Shown here piece by piece: positions 13,068 to 26,056 of a DNA stretch of 64,000 bases. The stretch covers positions 62,001 through 126,000 of the forward strand of contig CALSLK010000006.1 of assembly GCA_943787175.1 (NCBI GenBank), in the 5' to 3' direction. This stretch comes from an uncultured Alphaproteobacteria bacterium. Its GTDB lineage: Bacteria; Pseudomonadota; Alphaproteobacteria; SP197. The notes under the pieces are model-generated. The model saw only the letters and a list, made by a program, of their open reading frames with translations, searched no databases and was not told where the DNA came from. A program made the translations under genes and the position numbers. How positions within the stretch are numbered: the stretch's first letter is position 1; each line of letters begins with the position of its first letter.

Positions 13068-13167
13068 GCACGCGCTGACGCCCAGACTTCCGAACCTGGC
13101 CATGCAAGGAAGTTTGACAGGCGGGCTCAAGCTTTAGAAGCTGACGCCGCAATCCTTGGAAATCCCC

Positions 13168-14364
13168 ATGCAGACACTGCGCGCGACCACATCCCAGACC
13201 CTGGAAACCATGGCCAGCATGGCAGCAGAGGGCAATGCCGGCTGGCGGACGCTGCCACCTGACGCCTATTGCAACCCGGAGATTCATGCGCTTGAGCGCG
13301 AGCGTATCTTCCGCGCAGGCTGGATTGCGATCGGGCGCGCCGACCAGGCCGCCGAGGCGGGCGCCTATGTCACGCGCGAGATTCTGGGCGAGCCCATCGT
13401 CATGCTGCGCGGCAACGATGGGGAGCTGAGGGTCTTTTCCAACATCTGCCGCCATCGCTGGATGAAACTGCTGGAAGGGACAGGGCGCAAGGCTGTGATC
13501 ACCTGCCCTTATCATGCTTGGGTCTATGGTCTCGATGGTGCTCTGCGCCGCGCGCCCGAGATGGAACAGCACCCGGACTTCGACCCTGCGACCTGCGCGC
13601 TTGAAACCGTGAACCATGAAATCTGGCAGGGTTTCGTCTACGTCAATCTGGACGGTAGGGCGGATGCACTGGCACCACGCCTGTCCGATCTGGACCCGCG
13701 CATCGCGGCCTATGATCTCGACACCTGGGTCACCGCCGACACGGTCGATTGCGGCATCATCCCGTGGGACTGGAAGGTGATGCAGGATAACGGCGAGTGT
13801 TATCACCACGCCGGTCTGCACCCCCAGACCTTCCAGGATGTCTTTCCCGGTGAGGAAGCCGGTGCCGTGACCGGCGATGAGTGGTCGATGCTGTGGACTC
13901 CGGCGCGACAGGAAGTGCTGGAAAAAACCGGGTCCGGTGAAGCTGTCATGCCCGGCTGTTACTTCACGCCGCTGGAAGGCTTGGACGACTTTCAGCGCAC
14001 CAACTTCCTGCTGATTTATGTTCTGCCCAACTTCTTCATCTACCTGCAGCCAGATTGCGGCCTGCTGATCCGCGTCGAGCCGGTCGAGGCTGGACGCTCA
14101 CGCATGGCGGCCGATGTTCTGGTTCCCGCCAGTGCGCGCGAACGGCCCGATTATTCAGAGCAGCTCGCTGCTTTCACCGCGTTTTTCAATCGCTTCAACG
14201 ATGAAGACGGCCCGGTCAACACTGCAATCCAGAAGGCCTTGGAAACCGGCCGCGCCGGGCAGGCGCCGCTCTCTCATCTCGAAGCCCACAACCGCCATGT
14301 CGCCTGGTGGGTTTCACGCAAGCTTACGCAGGACAAAACGGCTGCGGCGCTGGCTGCAGAATAG
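13168..14364 (+). CDS. Rieske non-haem iron oxygenase alpha subunit, betaine/quaternary-amine demethylase type
   Basis: About 398 residues starting at ATG 13168 (MQTLRATTSQTLETM); a TTG four codons earlier is less likely. The Rieske [2Fe-2S] ligands are CRHRW and CPYHAW, and the mononuclear iron site is in NGECYHHAGLHP. The overall length and the C-terminal RxEPVEAGRSRM segment resemble GbcA, choline monooxygenase and carnitine oxygenase-type subunits. These oxidise N-methyl groups of quaternary amines using an NAD(P)H reductase partner, which is not in this window. Nearby sarcosine oxidase genes support a glycine-betaine or related substrate (inference). Confidence 0.8.
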   Translation: MQTLRATTSQTLETMASMAAEGNAGWRTLPPDAYCNPEIHALERERIFRAGWIAIGRADQAAEAGAYVTREILGEPIVMLRGNDGELRVFSNICRHRWMKLLEGTGRKAVITCPYHAWVYGLDGALRRAPEMEQHPDFDPATCALETVNHEIWQGFVYVNLDGRADALAPRLSDLDPRIAAYDLDTWVTADTVDCGIIPWDWKVMQDNGECYHHAGLHPQTFQDVFPGEEAGAVTGDEWSMLWTPARQEVLEKTGSGEAVMPGCYFTPLEGLDDFQRTNFLLIYVLPNFFIYLQPDCGLLIRVEPVEAGRSRMAADVLVPASARERPDYSEQLAAFTAFFNRFNDEDGPVNTAIQKALETGRAGQAPLSHLEAHNRHVAWWVSRKLTQDKTAAALAAE

Positions 14365-14372
14365 TCCGGCGT

Positions 14373-15368
14373 TCAGGTCTTTTCTTCGAGGCTGGCAATC
14401 AGGCGATCGATGTCGGCTGTCGCATTCCGCAGTGAAGCGACGATGACTTCGGGATCATCTGCGATGGGCAGTTGCTCGATCAGGCTTTCCAGTTTCACAC
14501 CCGACTGCCAGGCCGCGTGTCGTGCCAGCTCGGCCAGGATGCCCGGCTCACCCCAGGTCGTGATGCGTTCCACCTTGGTGGGATCATCGCCTGATTGATC
14601 TGCCGTGACGTAACCCGGCACCAGAGTGATGCGCTCGGCAACCTCGAACAGGCGCGTTGCCCGGTGCAACACGAGGTGGCCCTGCTGAAACAGCGCGTAG
14701 CCGGGGCCGGGGAAATGGATGGTCTCGACCAGTTCGGCCGGCAGGTCATCGGCAAAGCCCTCAGTGAGTTCTGATACCTGTGTGCCCAGAAGATCAGCAG
14801 CATGTTCCATGGTGCCGCGGAAGAACTCGAAGCGCCCACCGTTGAGTGTCGCTGGGTCGCTGGCCATCAGGACATAATCGAAACCGATGGAATCAACATG
14901 CCAGTTGTCGACCGCCTTGGAGAGATCATCGGGCGCGTAGTTGATGTAGACCTGTTGGGACGGCATCGAATGGGGCAGCAACCGCGTCCCGGCAATCTCC
15001 GAAAGGAAGATTGCGATCTCGGGACTGTTGGTCAGGTCACGCAGGAACCGCGAGCGATAGACTGCGCCCGGCACATAAGAGCTGGTGCGCTGGCCCTCTT
15101 CCATGCGTCGTGCCTCACGCAGGGCCCGGCAGACTGCCTGAACCGCGGCAACGCCTTCGTCACTCAACAGGCGAAATGGCCCCGCCGCTGCGACCCTAGA
15201 AGGTGTCGCGGCGATGACATCACCGCCATAACCGAAGTCGGCCAGTGTCCAGATGTGTGCGGGGGCTTCAAGGGCCAGATGCCGGGCAGGCTCGAACACC
15301 GGCTCATCAACAAGGGCCTGGTAACCCTTGGGCATGGAGTTCGGGAACGGGTTTGGCAAAGCCGTCAT
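14373..15368 (-). CDS. Putative Fe(II)/2-oxoglutarate oxygenase-like protein
   Basis: 331 residues, cytosolic. A possible iron-binding H-x-D occurs in NWHVDSIGFD (about residue 160) and a distal His in QQGHLVLHRATRL (about residue 230), the spacing of a double-stranded beta-helix oxygenase. YALFQQGH resembles the strand before the distal His of phytanoyl-CoA dioxygenase-type proteins. It lies convergent with the Rieske oxygenase gene and next to soxG, so a role in N-methylated amine or amino-acid catabolism is plausible. I do not recognise the exact family. Confidence 0.5.
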   Translation of the reverse strand: MTALPNPFPNSMPKGYQALVDEPVFEPARHLALEAPAHIWTLADFGYGGDVIAATPSRVAAAGPFRLLSDEGVAAVQAVCRALREARRMEEGQRTSSYVPGAVYRSRFLRDLTNSPEIAIFLSEIAGTRLLPHSMPSQQVYINYAPDDLSKAVDNWHVDSIGFDYVLMASDPATLNGGRFEFFRGTMEHAADLLGTQVSELTEGFADDLPAELVETIHFPGPGYALFQQGHLVLHRATRLFEVAERITLVPGYVTADQSGDDPTKVERITTWGEPGILAELARHAAWQSGVKLESLIEQLPIADDPEVIVASLRNATADIDRLIASLEEKT

Positions 15369-15450
15369 GACTGAAGCCTAACACCACATCTGGCGATGTG
15401 TCTTGCCAAAGGCGTCGCCGAAAAGTTCGTGGTTTCCCAGCAGTGGCTGC

Positions 15451-16152
15451 TCAGCCAGCCAGCGCCCGCACGGCTTCCAGACCTATCGCGCGGCCATCGA
15501 ATTCAGCCATGGCGTCGGTCAGGCATTCCCACATGTAAACGATCGACGCGCTGTCGAGCACCATGTCGAGGGCGTAGGTGTCGCCGCGGTCGTTGCGGAT
15601 CAGGATGGCGTTCATGCGCGCCACGCTGGTCTGGACGATTGCGTGGTTGGCGAAGCGGTGGGCACGCAGGTCGATGCCGCACATCTTGGCCATCATGTGG
15701 GGCACGCTGGTGCCGGTGATGGCGATACGCGCATTGGTGTCCGACCGGGGCACCGGGAAACACACCGCGCCTTCCTTGGTCCAGGCATCAGCCAGTTTGT
15801 CGATGGTTGCAGATGCGCCACCGTCGTCAGACAGCAGCAGCAATTCACCACCGGAAAGGCGGCAGGCAAGCGTACCGTCGGCCTGGGCCCGGGCCTGGTT
15901 TGGTTCGGGCAGGTCAACGCCCTGGCCTGCGGTCCAGCCAGCCATGTCCCAACCCTTGTAGCCGGCGCGCGGCAGGGCGGTGAGATCAGCGATGCCAAGC
16001 TGCGCAGCGCCCTGGGCTTCGACAGGTACGTCGCCAAAGCTGGCAGGGCAGGCAAAACCGTTCACCTCGACCCACTGGGCGCCCAGACCGGCGCTTACGC
16101 GGTAGAGATTGGAGCGGCGGATGCTATCGGTCGGGGAGATTGCGTCTGGCAT
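15451..16152 (-). CDS. soxG: Sarcosine oxidase subunit gamma
   Basis: About 233 residues from ATG 16152 (MPDAISPTDSIRR), one base after the soxA stop. A longer in-frame reading upstream overlaps soxA and is unlikely. Shares the GcvT-like fold of aminomethyltransferases, with conserved C-terminal MNAILIRNDRGDTY and FDGRAIGLEA. As the small gamma subunit it completes the alpha-beta-gamma-delta enzyme that oxidises sarcosine to glycine, H2O2 and a tetrahydrofolate-bound one-carbon unit. Last gene of soxBDAG. Confidence 0.85.
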   Translation of the reverse strand: MPDAISPTDSIRRSNLYRVSAGLGAQWVEVNGFACPASFGDVPVEAQGAAQLGIADLTALPRAGYKGWDMAGWTAGQGVDLPEPNQARAQADGTLACRLSGGELLLLSDDGGASATIDKLADAWTKEGAVCFPVPRSDTNARIAITGTSVPHMMAKMCGIDLRAHRFANHAIVQTSVARMNAILIRNDRGDTYALDMVLDSASIVYMWECLTDAMAEFDGRAIGLEAVRALAG

Positions 16153-16153
16153 C

Positions 16154-19108
16154 TCACATCTCCTGGCGGGCGTTATCGGGATCGTAGAACGGCAGTGGCA
16201 CGACCTTGCAATCGACAAGGTTGTTGAGATCCATCTTCACCTTCTTGCCGCTGACATGCCCGGAATCGATCCGGACCTGAAACCTGGAGCCAGGCTCGGC
16301 CTGATCCAATTCGACATAGGCAAGACCGATGGCTTTGCCGAGCGTCGGTGAATAGCTGCAGGACGTCACGCGACCGGCGATATCGCCATCCTTGATCACC
16401 AGATGGCATTCCTTGGGCAGGGTGGCGGCTTCACCACCGTCCAGTTCAAAGCCGACCAGCTTGCGGTCGAGATGTTCGCGGCGGATATCGATGGAACGTT
16501 TGCCGATATAGAACGGGCGTTTCTTGGCCAGCGCCCAGTCCATGTCGGCTTCCAGCGGATTGGTGAGGCCATCGGTGTCCTGGCTGACAATGATGTGGCC
16601 TTTTTCCAGGCGCAGCAGGCGCTGGCATTCGACACCAAAGGGCTTGATGCCGTGTTCGGCCCCGGCTTCCATGATGGCATCCCACAGCGCTTCGCCCGAA
16701 TGGGCGGGGCAATGGATTTCAAAGCCCAGCTCGCCGACGAAACCGACCCGCAACATGCGGCAGGGAATGCCCGCGACCGTGGCCATGCGCACGCCCATGT
16801 AAGGGAACCCATCGGCAGAGATATCTTCGTCGGTCAGCTTGGCCAGGACCTCGCGCGACTTCGGACCGGCGATGTTCACACCGCTATAGGCACCCGTGAC
16901 GTTGGTGACATCGACCTTCAGGCGCCACTGGGCATTCCAGAACAGCATCTCCTTGTAAACGCCATCCACGCCCGACGTCGTCGCGGTGACATAGAAATGG
17001 TTGTCATCGAATCGACAGGCGACACCGTCGTCGGTGATGACGCCCGTCATGTCGGTCATCAGCGTATAACGCGCGCGGCCCACCTGCTGCTTCTTGTAGG
17101 CCCAGGTGTACATGCGCTCCATCATCTCGGCCGCATCGGGCCCCCGGATCTCCAGGCCACCCAGCGTCGAGACATCGATCAGGCCGACATTCTCGCGCAC
17201 GTTCCTGGCTTCGCCGTGGATCGCTGCCGTGCGGTCGCTGCCCGCACCGTAGACCTCCGGGCGATACCACAGACCTGCCAACATCATGGCGGCACCGGCT
17301 TCGGCGTGGCGGTGATGCATGGAGGTCATGCGCTTGGGCTCGAAGCTGCGGCCGGCCAGCACGCCGATCTTCTCGGCGGTATAGGGCGGGCGCTGCGTCG
17401 TCATGCCCGCTTCGTTGACGCTCAGGCCATTGGCCTTCGCGTTCAGGCGAATGGCATTGAGCCAGGAATGACGCCCCTGGCTGGGGCCCATGCCGCAGGT
17501 CGAGAAGCGTTTCATCAGCTCGATATGGGCGTACCCCTCGGCCACGGCGTTGTTGAGGTCGTGGATCTGCAGGTCTTCGTCAAAGTCGATGAAGTCCTTG
17601 CCCTTGGCATGTTCAAACATGGGCCAGGGATGGTTCTGGCCCATCTCGCCCTTGTCATTGCGCACACTGGGAATTGCACTCTTGGTAAAGCCAGCGTCCT
17701 TGGCGGCCGACCAGCCGGCTGCGCGGCCCTGCTCGATCACCGTGTCGATCAGGAAGCAGCCAGCAACCGAACCAGCGGCATGCATGCCCTCGGGCAGTTC
17801 CGTAATCTCGAACATCGAGGTGGCATCGTTGTAGGGCGTCTTGCCCCCGGCATGCCAGATCAGGTTCGCGGTAGGCTGCCAGCCGATCGAGGAAATGATG
17901 GTATCGCAGTCAAATACGTCATGACGGTCAGCGACCCGTCCCTCGCCCGTGATCTTGGCGATACGCGCACTTTCGATGCCATTGAGATGTGGCTTGGCGA
18001 CTGCCTCATAAACTGTCGCGCCCAGGGAAATCGGCACACCATGATCAGCAACCGCATCTGCCAGTTCATGGTTGGGCCGCTCGGAGCTGAGGTCGGCGAC
18101 GCAGGCCACATCAACGCCCGATTCAATGAGATCAAGGGCCGTTGCATAACCATCAGCGTTGGACGTGGCCACCACGGCGCGCTCACCGGGCTTGGCGCCA
18201 TAACGGTTCATCAGGCGCTGGGCGGCTGAACCGTACATCACGCCGGGCAGATCGTTGTTGCGGAAGACCAGCGGCTGTTCGTAACTGCCGGTCGCCACGA
18301 CCACGGCCTTGGCACGCAGCTTGAACATGCGATTGCCCTGGATGACGGGCATGAAGTGATCGGTGAACCAGCCGTTGCAATAAGCACCTTCAAGGATGCG
18401 GATGTTGCTCTTGGCACGTACAGCCGAAATCAGGCTCGCGCGTTCTGCGGCAGCACGGTTGCCTTCGGCATCGAAGCGGGCATAGGTGAGCGAACCACCG
18501 ATCTCCGGGTTCTCCTCGACCAGCACAACCTCGATATCGTCGGACGTTTCGGCGGCTTCCAGTGCAGCAGACATGCCGGCTGGACCACCGCCGACAACAC
18601 AGACATCAGCCCACAGGTATTGCTTGTCGAAATAGCCGTGAGGGGCGTTGAGATCGACCTTGCCCAGGCCCGCCATGCGTCGAATGATCGGCTCCCAATA
18701 CTTCCAGGCGCCCTTGGGCCGGAAGAACGTCTTGTAATAGAACCCAACGGGCATGAACTTGCCGAACTTGTCGAGGATCTGCGCGCGGTCGTGATCCAGG
18801 CTGCCCACGAAGTTTTGGGCTTCGACCACCATGCCGGGTTCAATGACGCGGTTATCGGCCACCACGCTGGGTTCATCACCAATCTGGACAAGACTGTTGG
18901 CATCATGACCTGCAGCCGAAAGCGTGGCGCGGGGGCGGTGATACTTGAACGAGCGGGAAAGGGTCTTCACGCCATCGGCCCAGAGCGCGCTGGTGATGGT
19001 GTCACCTTTCAGGCCGACACGTTTCTTGCCGTCAAAGGTGAATTCGACCGGCTCGTTGCGGTCGACCAGCAGGCCACGGGGTGAAGGCAGACGGTTGTTG
19101 GCGGACAT
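16154..19108 (-). CDS. soxA: Sarcosine oxidase subunit alpha
   Basis: 984 residues, normal family length. The N-terminal 100 residues form the 2Fe-2S-ferredoxin-like small domain without cluster cysteines (VEFTFDGKKRVGLKGDTITS, then SFKYHRPRATLS). An NAD-binding oxidoreductase core follows: DVCVVGGGPAGMSAALEAAE near residue 170 and VVVATGSYEQP near 268. The last 380 residues are an aminomethyltransferase (GcvT) domain with GLIDVSTLGGLEIRGPDA, GFVGELGFEIH and the folate-binding region. It holds NAD and binds tetrahydrofolate in the heterotetramer. Five bases after soxD. Confidence 0.93.
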   Translation of the reverse strand: MSANNRLPSPRGLLVDRNEPVEFTFDGKKRVGLKGDTITSALWADGVKTLSRSFKYHRPRATLSAAGHDANSLVQIGDEPSVVADNRVIEPGMVVEAQNFVGSLDHDRAQILDKFGKFMPVGFYYKTFFRPKGAWKYWEPIIRRMAGLGKVDLNAPHGYFDKQYLWADVCVVGGGPAGMSAALEAAETSDDIEVVLVEENPEIGGSLTYARFDAEGNRAAAERASLISAVRAKSNIRILEGAYCNGWFTDHFMPVIQGNRMFKLRAKAVVVATGSYEQPLVFRNNDLPGVMYGSAAQRLMNRYGAKPGERAVVATSNADGYATALDLIESGVDVACVADLSSERPNHELADAVADHGVPISLGATVYEAVAKPHLNGIESARIAKITGEGRVADRHDVFDCDTIISSIGWQPTANLIWHAGGKTPYNDATSMFEITELPEGMHAAGSVAGCFLIDTVIEQGRAAGWSAAKDAGFTKSAIPSVRNDKGEMGQNHPWPMFEHAKGKDFIDFDEDLQIHDLNNAVAEGYAHIELMKRFSTCGMGPSQGRHSWLNAIRLNAKANGLSVNEAGMTTQRPPYTAEKIGVLAGRSFEPKRMTSMHHRHAEAGAAMMLAGLWYRPEVYGAGSDRTAAIHGEARNVRENVGLIDVSTLGGLEIRGPDAAEMMERMYTWAYKKQQVGRARYTLMTDMTGVITDDGVACRFDDNHFYVTATTSGVDGVYKEMLFWNAQWRLKVDVTNVTGAYSGVNIAGPKSREVLAKLTDEDISADGFPYMGVRMATVAGIPCRMLRVGFVGELGFEIHCPAHSGEALWDAIMEAGAEHGIKPFGVECQRLLRLEKGHIIVSQDTDGLTNPLEADMDWALAKKRPFYIGKRSIDIRREHLDRKLVGFELDGGEAATLPKECHLVIKDGDIAGRVTSCSYSPTLGKAIGLAYVELDQAEPGSRFQVRIDSGHVSGKKVKMDLNNLVDCKVVPLPFYDPDNARQEM

Positions 19109-19113
19109 GGCGC

Positions 19114-19425
19114 CTACTCCTTCGCTGCGGGGGCGGCAGGTGCTTCAGACGCGGCAAAATCGACGCGGTCCTTAAAAACCTCATTTGCCGGATAGGTTTT
19201 CAGGATCTCGTCGGTGCGGGTATCGCGCTCGGCGATGAACCAATAGGCCGTGGGCGTGTGGTACCACCATTCGCGCACCACTCCGGCCGTGTTGTTCTCC
19301 AGATAGACAAAGTCGATCCAGGTTTCGTTGTCGCAATCGGGCGCGGGCAAATCGAGCACTTCGCCGCCATAGGCGAACTCTGAAATGTTGCGCGGTCCGT
19401 TGAGCGGACAAGGCATGATCTTCAT
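19114..19425 (-). CDS. soxD: Sarcosine oxidase subunit delta, variant without the CxxC zinc pair
   Basis: 103 residues. Begins MKIMPCPLNGPRNISEF; classical SoxD carries a CPxCG zinc ligand pair here, whereas this protein keeps only Cys6 and has Asn at the second position. The rest is typical: EWWYHTPTAYWFIAERDT. The alanine-rich C-terminal tail (SEAPAAPAAKE) is likely disordered. It lies between soxB and soxA with gaps of 12 and 5 bases. The CPxNGPR form may be a recognised subfamily that binds no zinc. Confidence 0.88.
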   Translation of the reverse strand: MKIMPCPLNGPRNISEFAYGGEVLDLPAPDCDNETWIDFVYLENNTAGVVREWWYHTPTAYWFIAERDTRTDEILKTYPANEVFKDRVDFAASEAPAAPAAKE

Positions 19426-19437
19426 CGCGCCGTCTCC

Positions 19438-20694
19438 CTAATGGCCAACACTGGCGGCACCCTTTTCGCCGACCAGTTTGAAATCGTGAAAACGCTGCAG
19501 GGCAAAGGGCTGAATGGTTTCGGGCACCTTGCCCGTTGCCAGCATCTCGGCATTGCGCTTGCCGCAGACCGGTGTGGCCTTGAAACCCCACGTGCCCCAA
19601 CCGGCATCAATGTAATAGTCGTCGACCGGCGTCTCGCCCATGATCGGCGCAAAGTCGGGCGTCATGTCGGTCATGCCGGCCCATTGGCGCAGCAGCTTTA
19701 CCTCGCCGATATAGGGCAGCAGCTCCATCATGTGCATCATCAGGCCCTCTTTGAAATCAAGGGTCGAGCGCGTCATGTAGACGCCATAGGGATCGGTCGA
19801 TCCGCCCATCACCAGTTCGCCGCGCGAGGACTGGCTGACATAAACGTGCAGGCTGCCCGAAACCACGATGGCATCCAGGAACGGCTTCAACGGCTGGCTG
19901 ACGCAGGCCTGAAGCGGAATGGTCTTCAGCGGCAATTTGAAACCTGCCATGTCGGAGACCACACCCGACATGCCTGCGACACACTGGATGACCTTGCCGG
20001 CCTTGATGGTGCCGCGGTTGGTGTGAACGCCGGTGACCCGCTGCGGGCTGCCGTTTGCCTTGGTGATCTCGAAGCCGGTCACTTCGGTGTTCTGATGGAT
20101 ATGGACACCGCGTTTTGCAGCACCGGCGCCATAACCCCATGCCACCGCATCGTGGCGTGCGATGGCACCTGGCGCATGGAACAGCGCGCCCATGATGGGA
20201 TAGCGCACATCTTCGGAATAGTTAAGTTCGGGCACCATCTTCTGGAGCTCGTCACGCAGCACCAGCTCGGATTCGATGCCCATGTGTTTGTTCACCTCGG
20301 CACGCCAGCGCATGGTGCGGATCGCGCTGTCAGTATGGGCCAGCGTGAAATGGCCGCGCTCGGAATACATGAGGTTCATGTCGAAATCGTTGGCGAGGTC
20401 CTTATAGAGGGTCACCGATTCGTCATAGAACTTCACGCCTTCAGGGGTCAGGTAGTTGGAGCGGATAATGGTCGTATTGCGGCCCGTGTTGCCGCCGCCG
20501 ACATAGCCTTTTTCCAACACCGCAACATTGGTGATGCCGTGATCAGCCGCCAGGTAATAGGCCGTGGCCAGACCATGGCCGCCGCCACCCACAATGACGA
20601 TGTCATAGGAGTCCTTGAGATCGGTCTCGGCGGGCAGAGCGCGGGGGACCGGATGACCTTTGGAAAGGCCGTATTTGAGCAGGGTAAACGACAT
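19438..20694 (-). CDS. soxB: Sarcosine oxidase subunit beta
   Basis: 418 residues from ATG 20694 (MSFTLLKYGLSKGHPVPR), preceded by GGGAG; an upstream extension of 15 codons lacks support. The FAD-binding motif is DIVIVGGGGHGLATAYYLA, with the GNTGRNTTIIRSNYL loop and the C-terminal WAGMTDMTPDFAPIMGETP of DAO-family flavoproteins. GAIARHDAVAWGY is in the region that carries the covalently bound flavin His in this family. Catalytic dehydrogenase subunit and first gene of soxBDAG, downstream of the promoter at about 20.84 kb. Confidence 0.93.
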   Translation of the reverse strand: MSFTLLKYGLSKGHPVPRALPAETDLKDSYDIVIVGGGGHGLATAYYLAADHGITNVAVLEKGYVGGGNTGRNTTIIRSNYLTPEGVKFYDESVTLYKDLANDFDMNLMYSERGHFTLAHTDSAIRTMRWRAEVNKHMGIESELVLRDELQKMVPELNYSEDVRYPIMGALFHAPGAIARHDAVAWGYGAGAAKRGVHIHQNTEVTGFEITKANGSPQRVTGVHTNRGTIKAGKVIQCVAGMSGVVSDMAGFKLPLKTIPLQACVSQPLKPFLDAIVVSGSLHVYVSQSSRGELVMGGSTDPYGVYMTRSTLDFKEGLMMHMMELLPYIGEVKLLRQWAGMTDMTPDFAPIMGETPVDDYYIDAGWGTWGFKATPVCGKRNAEMLATGKVPETIQPFALQRFHDFKLVGEKGAASVGH

Positions 20695-21039
20695 TGGGAG
20701 AACTCCCGGGGCGAGCTGAAGGCAAGCTACCGCATACAATGGGGTCCGTCAGCACCCCTGAACGAATGCCTTGCGGTTTAGACCAGCGTTCCTGGCCTGT
20801 CCATGATCAAGTAGACCTTTGAGGTCCAATTTTATACCAAGATCAGCCAATTCAACCCAATTTGGCGATGTCCATTTGGGTAGCAGCGTGAATCCGCCCG
20901 CCATGTGTTATGATTTGTGTGATCGCGAAGCGCCGATTGGCCGTTCAGCCTTTCTGTGGGCAGGTTGCTACGCGCCATAGGATCCCTGAAAAACATTGGC
21001 ACGGCCTTTGTGGCACGCCAGTCATCTGGAACACGAGAC
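20695..21039. other. Intergenic region between soxB and the transglutaminase-like gene
   Basis: 345 bases with divergent genes on both sides. It contains the candidate soxBDAG promoter and dyad (20814-20860). I see nothing else that stands out, and the short open frames here have no recognisable product. Confidence 0.6.
20814..20860 (-). promoter_or_regulatory. Candidate sigma-70 promoter of soxBDAG with overlapping dyad
   Basis: On the minus strand TTGGGT (20860-20855), an 18-base spacer, then TATAAA (20836-20831). Just downstream lies a perfect dyad, GACCT-TTG-AGGTC (20814-20826), overlapping the expected start site and about 120 bases before the soxB ATG. That position suits repression. 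The regulator is unknown. Confidence 0.5.
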
Positions 21040-23859: not shown

Positions 23860-25053
23860 CTAGAGTTTCCACTCGCGCGGCACAAACAGGCCCTGGGCAA
23901 TCAGGCGTGTCTTAGCGTCCTGGTCGCCGGGCAACAGCTCTGCCAAGCGTCGCATCGTCAGTCCGAAGGAGCTGCGGGTCCAGTACCAGCGGCGAATGGC
24001 AAAGGGCGCATCGCCGCCCAGATGCACGGCAGTCTGACCAAAGGCGTCGGTAAGATCCTGTGATCCGTACTTGATGACATGAGCACGTTCACGCTTGGGA
24101 ATATCATCGCTGGGCCCCTGTCGCAGATAGGACGCAAAGATCGCAGACATCTGCGACAACGTACGGCCCGAAAGGCCAACCAGCGTCCAGCCATCGGCCC
24201 GAACCGCATCCTGGTGCAGCGGAACCAGAGTAGCGACATCGCGCTCCAGCCGATCAGCAAGGTCAGCATTCGAGATCGACTCATCCACCGCCTCAAGGTT
24301 CATCGGCGGCACCCAGCCATCGGGATCAGCTGTGGCGGGAGGTTCCACATCGAAGCTCTCGAGCACGGGTCCCGCCGGGCGATCCAGCAGGTCGAGCGCT
24401 CCCCGCAACACACGCATCTGCAATTCCTGATTGTCTGGTGCGCCAAAGGTGCGTCCGTACCAATAAGGCACCCACAGGGCCCGGGGCGGTTTCTGGCCTT
24501 GCGCATGATGATGCACAAGCGCCACCAGGGTGGTCGCAAGGCCTTGTCGTTCCAGAATATGTGCCAGCACGCTCACGGCGCGCGTACACGCTGGTCAGAC
24601 CGGGGCCAGTACCACGGTATTGACGCCCTCGGCCTTCATCGCCGCCGCCACGGTTTCAGCGTGGGGGATGAACTGCTCCGGCGCCTCAGATCCACCCATG
24701 AAAGAATAATGCGTCGGTGCAACCGAACCAAGACTGCCTTGCGCAACCAGCTCATCGAGCCGATCAAAGGGCAGATAGAGGTTGCGATCCCTCATGAACC
24801 CCGTGCGGTCGAAGTTGACCGAGATATGGCTGAGGTGAAAATCAACCTGCTCACGGGGAAAGCTGCGCCAGTCATGACCGTTCCATGCGAACGGCTTGTC
24901 ACCGGCAGCATGGATACCCGCCGATGATACAACGGCAACCCGGCGTTCCTCCGGTGGTGGTGGCGTTACCCACGGCCGATCCTCGAAATCGACATAGTCA
25001 TAACTCGATGACGAGGCGCGTGATGCCTCGCTGAGGTCGCTCCATTTGACCAC
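23860..25053 (-). CDS. GrdB-like selenoprotein (glycine/sarcosine/betaine reductase selenoprotein B family), UGA read as Sec
   Basis: 397 residues if TGA at 24597-24595 is read as selenocysteine 153. Before it the protein has VAVVSSAGIHAAGDKPF, DFHLSHISVNFD and GSVAPTHYSFMGG; directly after it, in the same frame, PACTRAVSVLAHILERQGL and GAPDNQELQMRVLRGALDLL. Both halves belong to the selenoprotein B family, and the TGA falls on the first residue of its CPxC redox motif (U-P-A-C156). A stable hairpin follows the TGA at once. GTG 25053 is preceded by AGGGAG at 7 bases; a longer ATG reading at 25107 lacks such a site. The gene follows HIT and EamA genes. The family's anaerobic members act in amino-acid reductases; the role of proteobacterial homologues is unclear. 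A Cys-to-stop mutation is the alternative. Confidence 0.75.
24564..24594 (-). promoter_or_regulatory. SECIS-like hairpin directly after the in-frame UGA
   Basis: 31 bases beginning right after the TGA (minus strand). Nine pairs from CCAGCGUGU with GCGUGCUGG-side partners (three wobble), one A-A mismatch, then three more pairs closing a GCGCC loop whose first base is G. Bacterial SECIS elements are hairpins immediately 3' of UGA with a G near the start of the apical loop. The loop begins 13 bases after UGA, slightly closer than in E. coli fdhF. An alternative inner fold gives a 9-base loop that also starts with G. Confidence 0.6.
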
Positions 25054-25114
25054 GGTCAATCTCCCTAGTGTTCCAGGCCACCTTACCGACGCCCAATCGT
25101 GAGACAACCGGGGT

Positions 25115-26056
25115 TCAGGGTTTACGCCCCCACCGGGGCAAACGACCTTCCAGGGCCAGGATGCTGGCGATCACCAGTGCCGCACCGGCCAGTTGTTCCC
25201 AGGCCATGGTTTCATCCAGAAGCACCCAGGCCAGCACCAGCGTGGCGACAGGGCCGACTGTGGAGATCAGCGCCGAGCGCGATGCCCCGACCCTGCGGAT
25301 GCCTTCGGTGATGAGCAGAAACGGAACGACCGAGCAGAACAGCGCCATGACTGCAATCCAGCCAAAGGCGGTCCAGCCTGTCGCCAGATTCTCGATCGGC
25401 GTGGTGATCAGGAAATGGAGATCGGTTCCAAGCGCCGCACCGATAATGGCAGACATGGCCATACGCGCGCTGCCCAACCGGGGACCCAGCGCCTGGTTCA
25501 TCATGTAATAGATGGCAAAGACAAAGGCCGAAGCGATCGCCCACAGACCACCTTCCAGATTGGCAAGGAAGAGCTGGAAATCGGCAATGCCCATGACCAG
25601 CACAATGCCGGTTTCAGCCAGGACCAGCGCAACAATCTGACGCGGCGGCGGTGGGCGGCGGCGGCGTATGCTGTCGAGTACCAGCACGAAGACAGGAAAG
25701 CTGAAAAGCAGTACCCGCTCGACCGAAACGTCGATCATGGTAAGTGCCGTGAAATCAAGCACGCCGGCGACATAGTACCCAACAACGCCGGCCAGCATGG
25801 CCATGACGAAGTCACGCGGTGCCATCTTCAGGGCAGCAGGACTTCCGGTGATGTAGATCGCGACTGCGGCAATCATGGGCAGGGCCAGCGTGTAGCGGAT
25901 CGCCAGGAGCGTGGCGACATCGACCCCTTCGGCAAAGATGTATTTGGCAAGGATGCCCTTGAGCGCCAGAGCCAGCGCCGAAATGACGACACAGAAAATA
26001 CCGATCAGTTCACGGCGGCGATCCGATGGATCAACGGGCGCCGATGCAACCGTCAC
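25115..26056 (-). CDS. EamA/DMT-superfamily transporter
   Basis: 313 residues with ten predicted hydrophobic segments in two EamA repeats, e.g. LIGIFCVVISALALALKGIL and LEGGLWAIASAFVFAIYYMM. Drug/metabolite-transporter fold, inner membrane, substrate unknown. The start is GTG 26056, sharing GTGA with the stop of the HIT gene. It ends 62 bases before the selenoprotein gene, so the three probably form one transcript. Confidence 0.85.
   Translation of the reverse strand: MTVASAPVDPSDRRRELIGIFCVVISALALALKGILAKYIFAEGVDVATLLAIRYTLALPMIAAVAIYITGSPAALKMAPRDFVMAMLAGVVGYYVAGVLDFTALTMIDVSVERVLLFSFPVFVLVLDSIRRRRPPPPRQIVALVLAETGIVLVMGIADFQLFLANLEGGLWAIASAFVFAIYYMMNQALGPRLGSARMAMSAIIGAALGTDLHFLITTPIENLATGWTAFGWIAVMALFCSVVPFLLITEGIRRVGASRSALISTVGPVATLVLAWVLLDETMAWEQLAGAALVIASILALEGRLPRWGRKP

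Follow-up and report, generated by a model that had tools for sequence, protein, structure and literature searches.

An in-frame TGA that almost certainly encodes selenocysteine in a PrdB/GrdB-like gene of an uncultured alphaproteobacterium

The window analysed here is a stretch of 64,000 nucleotides from an uncultured Alphaproteobacteria bacterium (contig CALSLK010000006.1 of assembly GCA_943787175.1). On its minus strand lies a gene interrupted by an in-frame TGA, which an initial sequence-only reading had described as a single GrdB-like gene encoding a probable selenoprotein, with selenocysteine (Sec) at the TGA. The gene and its parts are as follows.

23860 to 25053, minus strand: selenoprotein gene of 397 residues with Sec153, GTG start at 25053 and stop at 23862-23860, recognised from read-through, homologues and the ratio of nonsynonymous to synonymous substitution rates (dN/dS)
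24595 to 24597, minus strand: TGA read as Sec (residue 153, motif UPACTR), which lines up with TGA codon 151 in a gene annotated as PrdB
24567 to 24583, minus strand: probable apical stem-loop of a selenocysteine insertion sequence (SECIS), bases 15-31 counted from the T of the TGA, supported by covariation over 102 distinct sequences
24334 to 24957, minus strand: PrdB/GrdB-like alpha/beta Sec domain, residues 33-240, from TIGR04483, Pfam GRDB, an AlphaFold2 model and weak Rossmann-like matches
23863 to 24333, minus strand: C-terminal helical domain, residues 241-397, lying past the end of PrdB, from the AlphaFold2 model and the alignment with PrdB

From the GTG the frame runs for 152 codons, meets the TGA and continues for 244 codons to the stop, just as the sequence-only reading had claimed, and the motif around Sec153 is V-U-P-A-C-T-R, with the TGA at the first residue of UPAC as that reading had it. 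The GTG at 25053 is the likely start, rather than the TTG at 25107, because many homologues begin with M-V-R-L or M-V-K-W at the same position. The window protein is 73% and 70% identical to its homologues at loci L056 and L057, and against these two dN is 0.13-0.18 and dS 1.2-2.0 before the TGA, and 0.21 and 1.2-1.6 after it. With dN/dS at about 0.1-0.2 on either side, purifying selection acts on both parts of the gene that flank the TGA.

A second copy of the gene in the same genome, on contig C11, is 41% identical and carries TGA at the equal column, in the motif UPLCTC. It had been expected that homologues would carry CPxC at this place, and the suggested check was to see whether the column holds Cys or Sec; instead, TGA occupies it in 109 of 110 fetched loci (L026-L135), within UPxC-type motifs, and the remaining locus has TGC. 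These loci come from the class search and a scan of GTDB contigs; the own paralogue is among them, and some sites appear twice. The count allowed Cys codons as well as TGA and is fair for the column. The homologue loci are the best 80 of 99, lean towards near relatives and again reach some sites twice. The TGC locus belongs to a genome without a selA match; it and two further TGA-free long homologues, three in all, read CPNC, and no motif was seen in the TGA-free match G197 (L176), in an inspection that left out G126, G255 and G303. An in-frame TGA at the Sec/Cys column of homologues, one mark of a bacterial selenoprotein, is what was found here.

Carriage of the TGA also follows the Sec synthesis gene selA. 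In the class, 41 of 385 genomes have a relative at E <= 1e-20; the match contains a TGA in 34 of them and lacks one in 7, a split that pools full-length and short relatives and accepts a TGA anywhere inside the match, the column itself having been inspected in the fetched loci only. A selA gene above the curated cut-off is present in 56 of the 385 genomes, among them 32 of the 34 TGA carriers and none of the 7 TGA-free carriers (Fisher p 1.6e-6, which ignores kinship). The TGA-carrying relatives in G264 (L048/L165) and G314 are without a listed selA match in genomes that are 100% and 95% complete, for which an absent contig, a different SelA or lost decoding may be responsible. Chance is excluded as the source of the interrupted frame because the paralogue has TGA at the equal column, and because of the homologues, the dN/dS on both sides and the link with selA. 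Almost certainly, then, this conserved gene uses its in-frame TGA to encode selenocysteine. The possibility that TGA is a sense codon genome-wide was rejected, as TGA terminates selA and further frames on contig C31 and tRNA-Sec is present.

A stem of 6-7 base pairs with compensatory changes begins 11 bases past the TGA. Across the 102 sequences, which were collected with a pattern that contains TGA, the stem 15-21/25-31 has standard pairs in 622 of 714 cells (2000 shuffles gave a mean of 594.6 and a maximum of 605), and sliding its 3' side by 1-3 bases leaves at most 448 standard cells. Pair 16-30 is standard in 99 of the 102 (C-G 77, U-A 18, U-G 2, A-U 1 and G-C 1, with 3 non-standard), where 2000 shuffles reach at most 90; two other pairs are frequently open, 17-29 being standard in 58 and 21-25 in 63 of the 102. 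Folding of 20 sequences hand-picked from these for variation gave an identical six-pair stem, the 102-sequence count being the fair one. The window sequence itself forms a hairpin of six pairs with a five-base loop, and the position and size of the stem fit a bacterial SECIS. No Rfam family matched above its gathering score in the window.

The genome was also searched for selA, selB, selC and selD, as the sequence-only reading had proposed. On contig C31, selA is whole (573.9 bits), and so is the tRNA-Sec gene selC (68.4 bits against a gathering score of 47). Other results weigh against Sec decoding at this gene. On the same contig selB lies in pieces, as does a fusion of a pyridine-nucleotide oxidoreductase with SelD, so that these two genes of the proposed set are present but frame-broken. 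In addition, when the window sequence is folded alone (48 bases from the TGA), the energy of -16.4 kcal/mol has a z of -0.49 and is equalled by 50 of 200 shuffles; the single-sequence hairpin is therefore no proof, and of the hairpin noted at first it is the covarying stem at bases 15-31 directly downstream of the TGA that stood, while the lone fold proved no better than shuffles. With these reservations the original call of a selenoprotein is supported.

Compared with locus L059, the selB-selD stretch (L023, G000:C31:36000-50000) has 47 indels over 6.9 kb, of which 46 break the frame. Insertions account for 44 of the 46 and cluster in the 3' portions of the two genes, and just 10 of the 47 extend a single-base run. 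In the window, about 10 kb aligned with L057 contains 8 indels, 6 of them of a length not divisible by three, and 7.6 kb aligned with L056 contains 4, of which 3 are of such a length. The SelB and SelD frames are whole in L059 and L070. The broken genes are probably an assembly fault, which is likelier than decay.

By its sequence the gene belongs to a known selenoprotein superfamily, related to the reductases that anaerobes use on amino acids, and has a variant architecture. The window protein matches Pfam GRDB (PF07355) at 25.2 bits against a gathering score of 22, over model positions 227-345 of 347, that is, the Sec half only, which places it in the broad GRDB superfamily. The best NCBIfam match is PrdB, TIGR04483 (E 9.4e-30, residues 35-223), at 103.8 bits where an equivalog assignment takes a score above 300; GrdF reaches 38.3 bits (cut-off 800) and GrdH 36.2 bits (cut-off 775). 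The earlier name 'GrdB-like' holds only for the Sec half, which is shared with GrdB; the best-matching family is PrdB and the C-terminal helical domain is extra. In an alignment of 47 members (the 2 own proteins and 45 of the 80 loci, chosen as full-length), every sequence matches both TIGR04483 (E <= 1e-3) and GRDB (E <= 0.01), and the invariant positions include R63, S78, D82, H115-M119, Sec/Cys153, C156, T157, E168 and W356. A phage protein family was also considered and rejected, there being no PHROG match at E <= 0.1.

The AlphaFold2 model, built with 47 sequences, has a predicted local distance difference test (pLDDT) score of 92.3 and a predicted template modelling (pTM) score of 0.91. 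It has an alpha/beta domain up to about residue 240, with residue 153 after the strand 146-150 and before the helix 154-169, followed by helices over 262-386. Among solved structures the model has weak Rossmann-like matches, with no thioredoxin among the rows listed, and other folds are possible. In the tree, which leaves out the Cys form L175, the window protein groups with L056 and L057, and a long branch (1.98) separates this clade from the remaining 46 rows, which marks the window protein as a strongly diverged paralogue with Sec retained.

The classical reductases of this superfamily work with partner subunits. GrdE/PrdA (PF09338) was sought in 31 carrier genomes (10 of the 41 carriers of the class and the genomes of 21 of the 80 loci) and was found neither in the own genome, which is 91.8% complete, nor in 24 other carriers; it is present in the remaining 6, all outside the class, which serve as positive controls, and PF09338 does recognise a PrdA. 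Similarly, GrdA was found in none of the 10 class carriers searched, including the own genome, and is present in the same 6 carriers that have GrdE/PrdA. Absence from the own genome is not absolute at this completeness, but nine class relatives agree. Neither the PrdA that would accompany a PrdB nor the GrdE and GrdA that would accompany a component B was therefore found. A classical glycine, sarcosine, betaine or D-proline reductase was rejected on these grounds, and the glycine/sarcosine/betaine reductase role implied by the family name in the sequence-only reading is not supported. Genome G395 (locus L095, a SAR202 record) has eight GrdE/PrdA-like matches, some of them partial, and one TGA-bearing GrdA match, which suggests an unusual load of glycine-reductase-like systems.

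The surroundings of the gene are conserved in related loci. The neighbouring genes, assigned by Pfam, are as follows.

25115 to 26056, minus strand: EamA-family transporter, 61 bases upstream of the selenoprotein gene; it adjoins the family gene in the window, L056, L057 and L058
26053 to 26427, minus strand: HIT-domain protein overlapping the EamA gene, present in the window, L056, L057 and L058
23020 to 23823, plus strand: short-chain dehydrogenase, convergent and outside the operon; convergent also in L056, L057 and L058

The order HIT, EamA and selenoprotein gene on one strand, with the convergent dehydrogenase, is thus kept in L056, L057 and L058, the last being a near-copy of L057 on another contig, and the EamA and selenoprotein genes probably form one operon. 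A sarcosine oxidase operon lies further along the window and also near the gene in L057 and its near-copy; it lies beyond convergent and intervening genes, outside the selenoprotein operon. Within 13156-20739 of the window it is accompanied by a Rieske oxygenase resembling glycine betaine monooxygenase (below the cut-off). The protein at 14373-15368 reaches 25.9 bits with the HalD halogenase model, just below the cut-off of 26.

The second paralogue belongs to a group with a different setting, in which an amidohydrolase gene precedes the family gene on the same strand at a distance of 20-183 bases in 9 loci (L060 and L143 being one site); at L091/L142 and L140 the nearest 6 kb showed no amidohydrolase. 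The own copy (L024, G000:C11:52000-71000) follows an amidohydrolase and adjoins a frame-broken gene resembling betaine-homocysteine methyltransferase. In relatives such as L059, SelD follows the second paralogue instead, and this difference at the one end may be a rearrangement or a contig fault. Of the 120 loci given, 19 have SelD no more than 200 bases from the family gene; the set includes L023, which lacks a family gene, and covers two sites twice (L060/L143 and L091/L142). In a survey of 100 of the 183 listed flanking open reading frames (ORFs), some of which are antisense artefacts of a simple ORF caller, 116 Pfam families were found at E <= 1e-8, led by AIRS (SelD-type) domains with 8 occurrences, and the neighbours vary widely between lineages. 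The records of L079, L081, L082, L094, L096, L097, L108 and L118 are titled Bordetella parapertussis or Chitinophaga pinensis and are apparently environmental metagenome-assembled genomes, so these titles may be wrong.

Taken together, we consider it reasonably probable that the product is a Sec reductase in which Sec153 reductively cleaves a bond in a small molecule without PrdA/GrdE and GrdA. Machinery, stem and conservation suggest that in this strain SelB and Sec-tRNA-Sec, guided by the downstream stem-loop, would insert Sec at UGA 153 instead of terminating. By model and alignment, Sec153 would sit in the PrdB/GrdB-like alpha/beta domain, with Cys156 three residues on. On the pattern of PrdB and GrdB chemistry, the target of the selenolate would be an electrophile or a small organic substrate, in which a C-N, C-S or comparable bond would be cleaved reductively; Cys156 would then resolve the intermediate, and cellular thiols or thioredoxin would re-reduce it. 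The reaction would run without a pyruvoyl subunit (PrdA/GrdE) and without GrdA, and substrate binding or assembly may fall to the C-terminal helical domain instead. In a bolder and only tentative form of this proposal, the helical domain replaces the pyruvoyl partner in a self-sufficient selenium reductase that cleaves small-molecule bonds in aerobic-looking bacteria (judged solely from oxidase and oxygenase genes in the window), its two paralogues, EamA-linked and amidohydrolase-linked, serving two substrates.

Several other explanations could be offered. If there were a sequencing error or a recent nonsense mutation, the gene would encode a Cys protein and its stop would be an artefact or genuine, and an error-prone stretch does exist on another contig of the assembly. 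TGA stands at the equal column in the paralogue and nearly all fetched loci, however, the stem is conserved and selection continues past the TGA, and error or pseudogene is ruled out unless all the homologues share the error; its probability is negligible. It is also conceivable that the gene is a true selenoprotein gene and that this strain is losing Sec decoding through decay of selB and selD. The many frame-breaking indels against a close relative, few of which lengthen a single-base run, and the wholeness of selA and tRNA-Sec would fit such a loss, but those indels are clustered and almost all insertions, which is unlike typical bacterial gene decay. Moreover, the relatives L059 and L070 keep both frames whole, and P0001 has a short end branch (0.067), similar to that of L056 (0.063), making ongoing loss improbable.

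As to function, a general thiol-dependent enzyme that detoxifies or reduces peroxides or disulphides, rather than cleaving bonds, would be a selenoprotein too. The UxxC motif speaks for it, and so does the wide variation of neighbours in the flanking survey, as for a household function. Yet the listed structural matches of the model are Rossmann-like and none is thioredoxin-like (other folds being possible), residues near the Sec column are in common with PrdB, and the paralogues stand in different conserved gene pairs; pairing with a transporter or an amidohydrolase suggests specific substrates. We regard this alternative as unlikely, though deserving of attention. A selenoprotein B working in a complex of D-proline, glycine, sarcosine or betaine reductase would account for the Pfam GRDB match above its gathering score, the low TIGR04483 E value and the N-methylglycine catabolism genes nearby. 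Against this stand scores far below the PrdB, GrdF and GrdH cut-offs, the missing N-terminal half of GrdB, the added C-terminal domain, and partners not found in the 91.8% complete genome (GrdE/PrdA, sought with a model that recognises a PrdA, and GrdA); a complexed enzyme is thus highly doubtful.

The gene matters in that Sec 'PrdB' proteins are called after a reaction although the search did not find the gene for its known partner in 25 of 31 carriers. Their function can be tested from the genome context, in which one conserved gene pair indicates a transporter and another an amidohydrolase. Furthermore, the long form keeps Sec in 109 of 110 loci and has Cys only where selA was not found, which suggests a chemistry that profits from selenium, in a sample that leans to near relatives; the Global Ocean Sampling data contained 110 Cys beside 235 Sec sequences of the broad family under Pfam PF07355 (PMC2398784). 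The literature searches made listed no study of what the partnerless form does. A 2026 review counts D-proline reductase TIGR04483 and GrdB among the verified families (PMC13188914), and further papers bear on what is known (PMC1794560, PMC5029168).

Among known systems, PrdB (TIGR04483) has a homologous Sec domain, an equal Sec column and many residues in common with the window protein. In the annotated PrdB of Terrisporobacter, TGA codon 151 falls on the Sec column and the protein ends where the extra domain of the window protein starts. That PrdB has 241 residues and is encoded beside prdA, whereas the window protein has about 400 residues and no PrdA/GrdE was found in its genome; in addition, the motif is UGTCHR in PrdB and UPxCTR here, and the window protein scores about one third of the PrdB cut-off. 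GrdB, GrdF and GrdH align with it through their C-terminal Sec half, but their N-terminal half is missing from the window protein, GrdE and GrdA were not found here, and the residues around Sec are T/S-U-G-T in four GrdB-type proteins and V-U-P-x-C in this one. There are also short alphaproteobacterial Cys forms (L178 and L179) of about 300 residues, too short for the long helical domain, with Cys in place of Sec in the motifs CPVC and CPIC; the Pfam GRDB match of L178 is weak, its 21.3 bits falling short of the cut-off of 22, and the RefSeq name of such relatives is 'glycine/sarcosine/betaine reductase selenoprotein B family protein'. Sec 'PrdB' proteins have been known from marine metagenomes since 2005, and in the Sargasso Sea set the 42 genes for those with UxxC place them third in number among the selenoprotein families (PMC1088965). 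In the parts available, both metagenome papers name the family after D-proline reductase, and the UxxC motif is common to their proteins and the window protein (PMC1088965, PMC2398784); in those parts neither paper takes up the lack of PrdA, the C-terminal domain or the context in genomes. The window protein and these marine proteins probably belong to one broad family.
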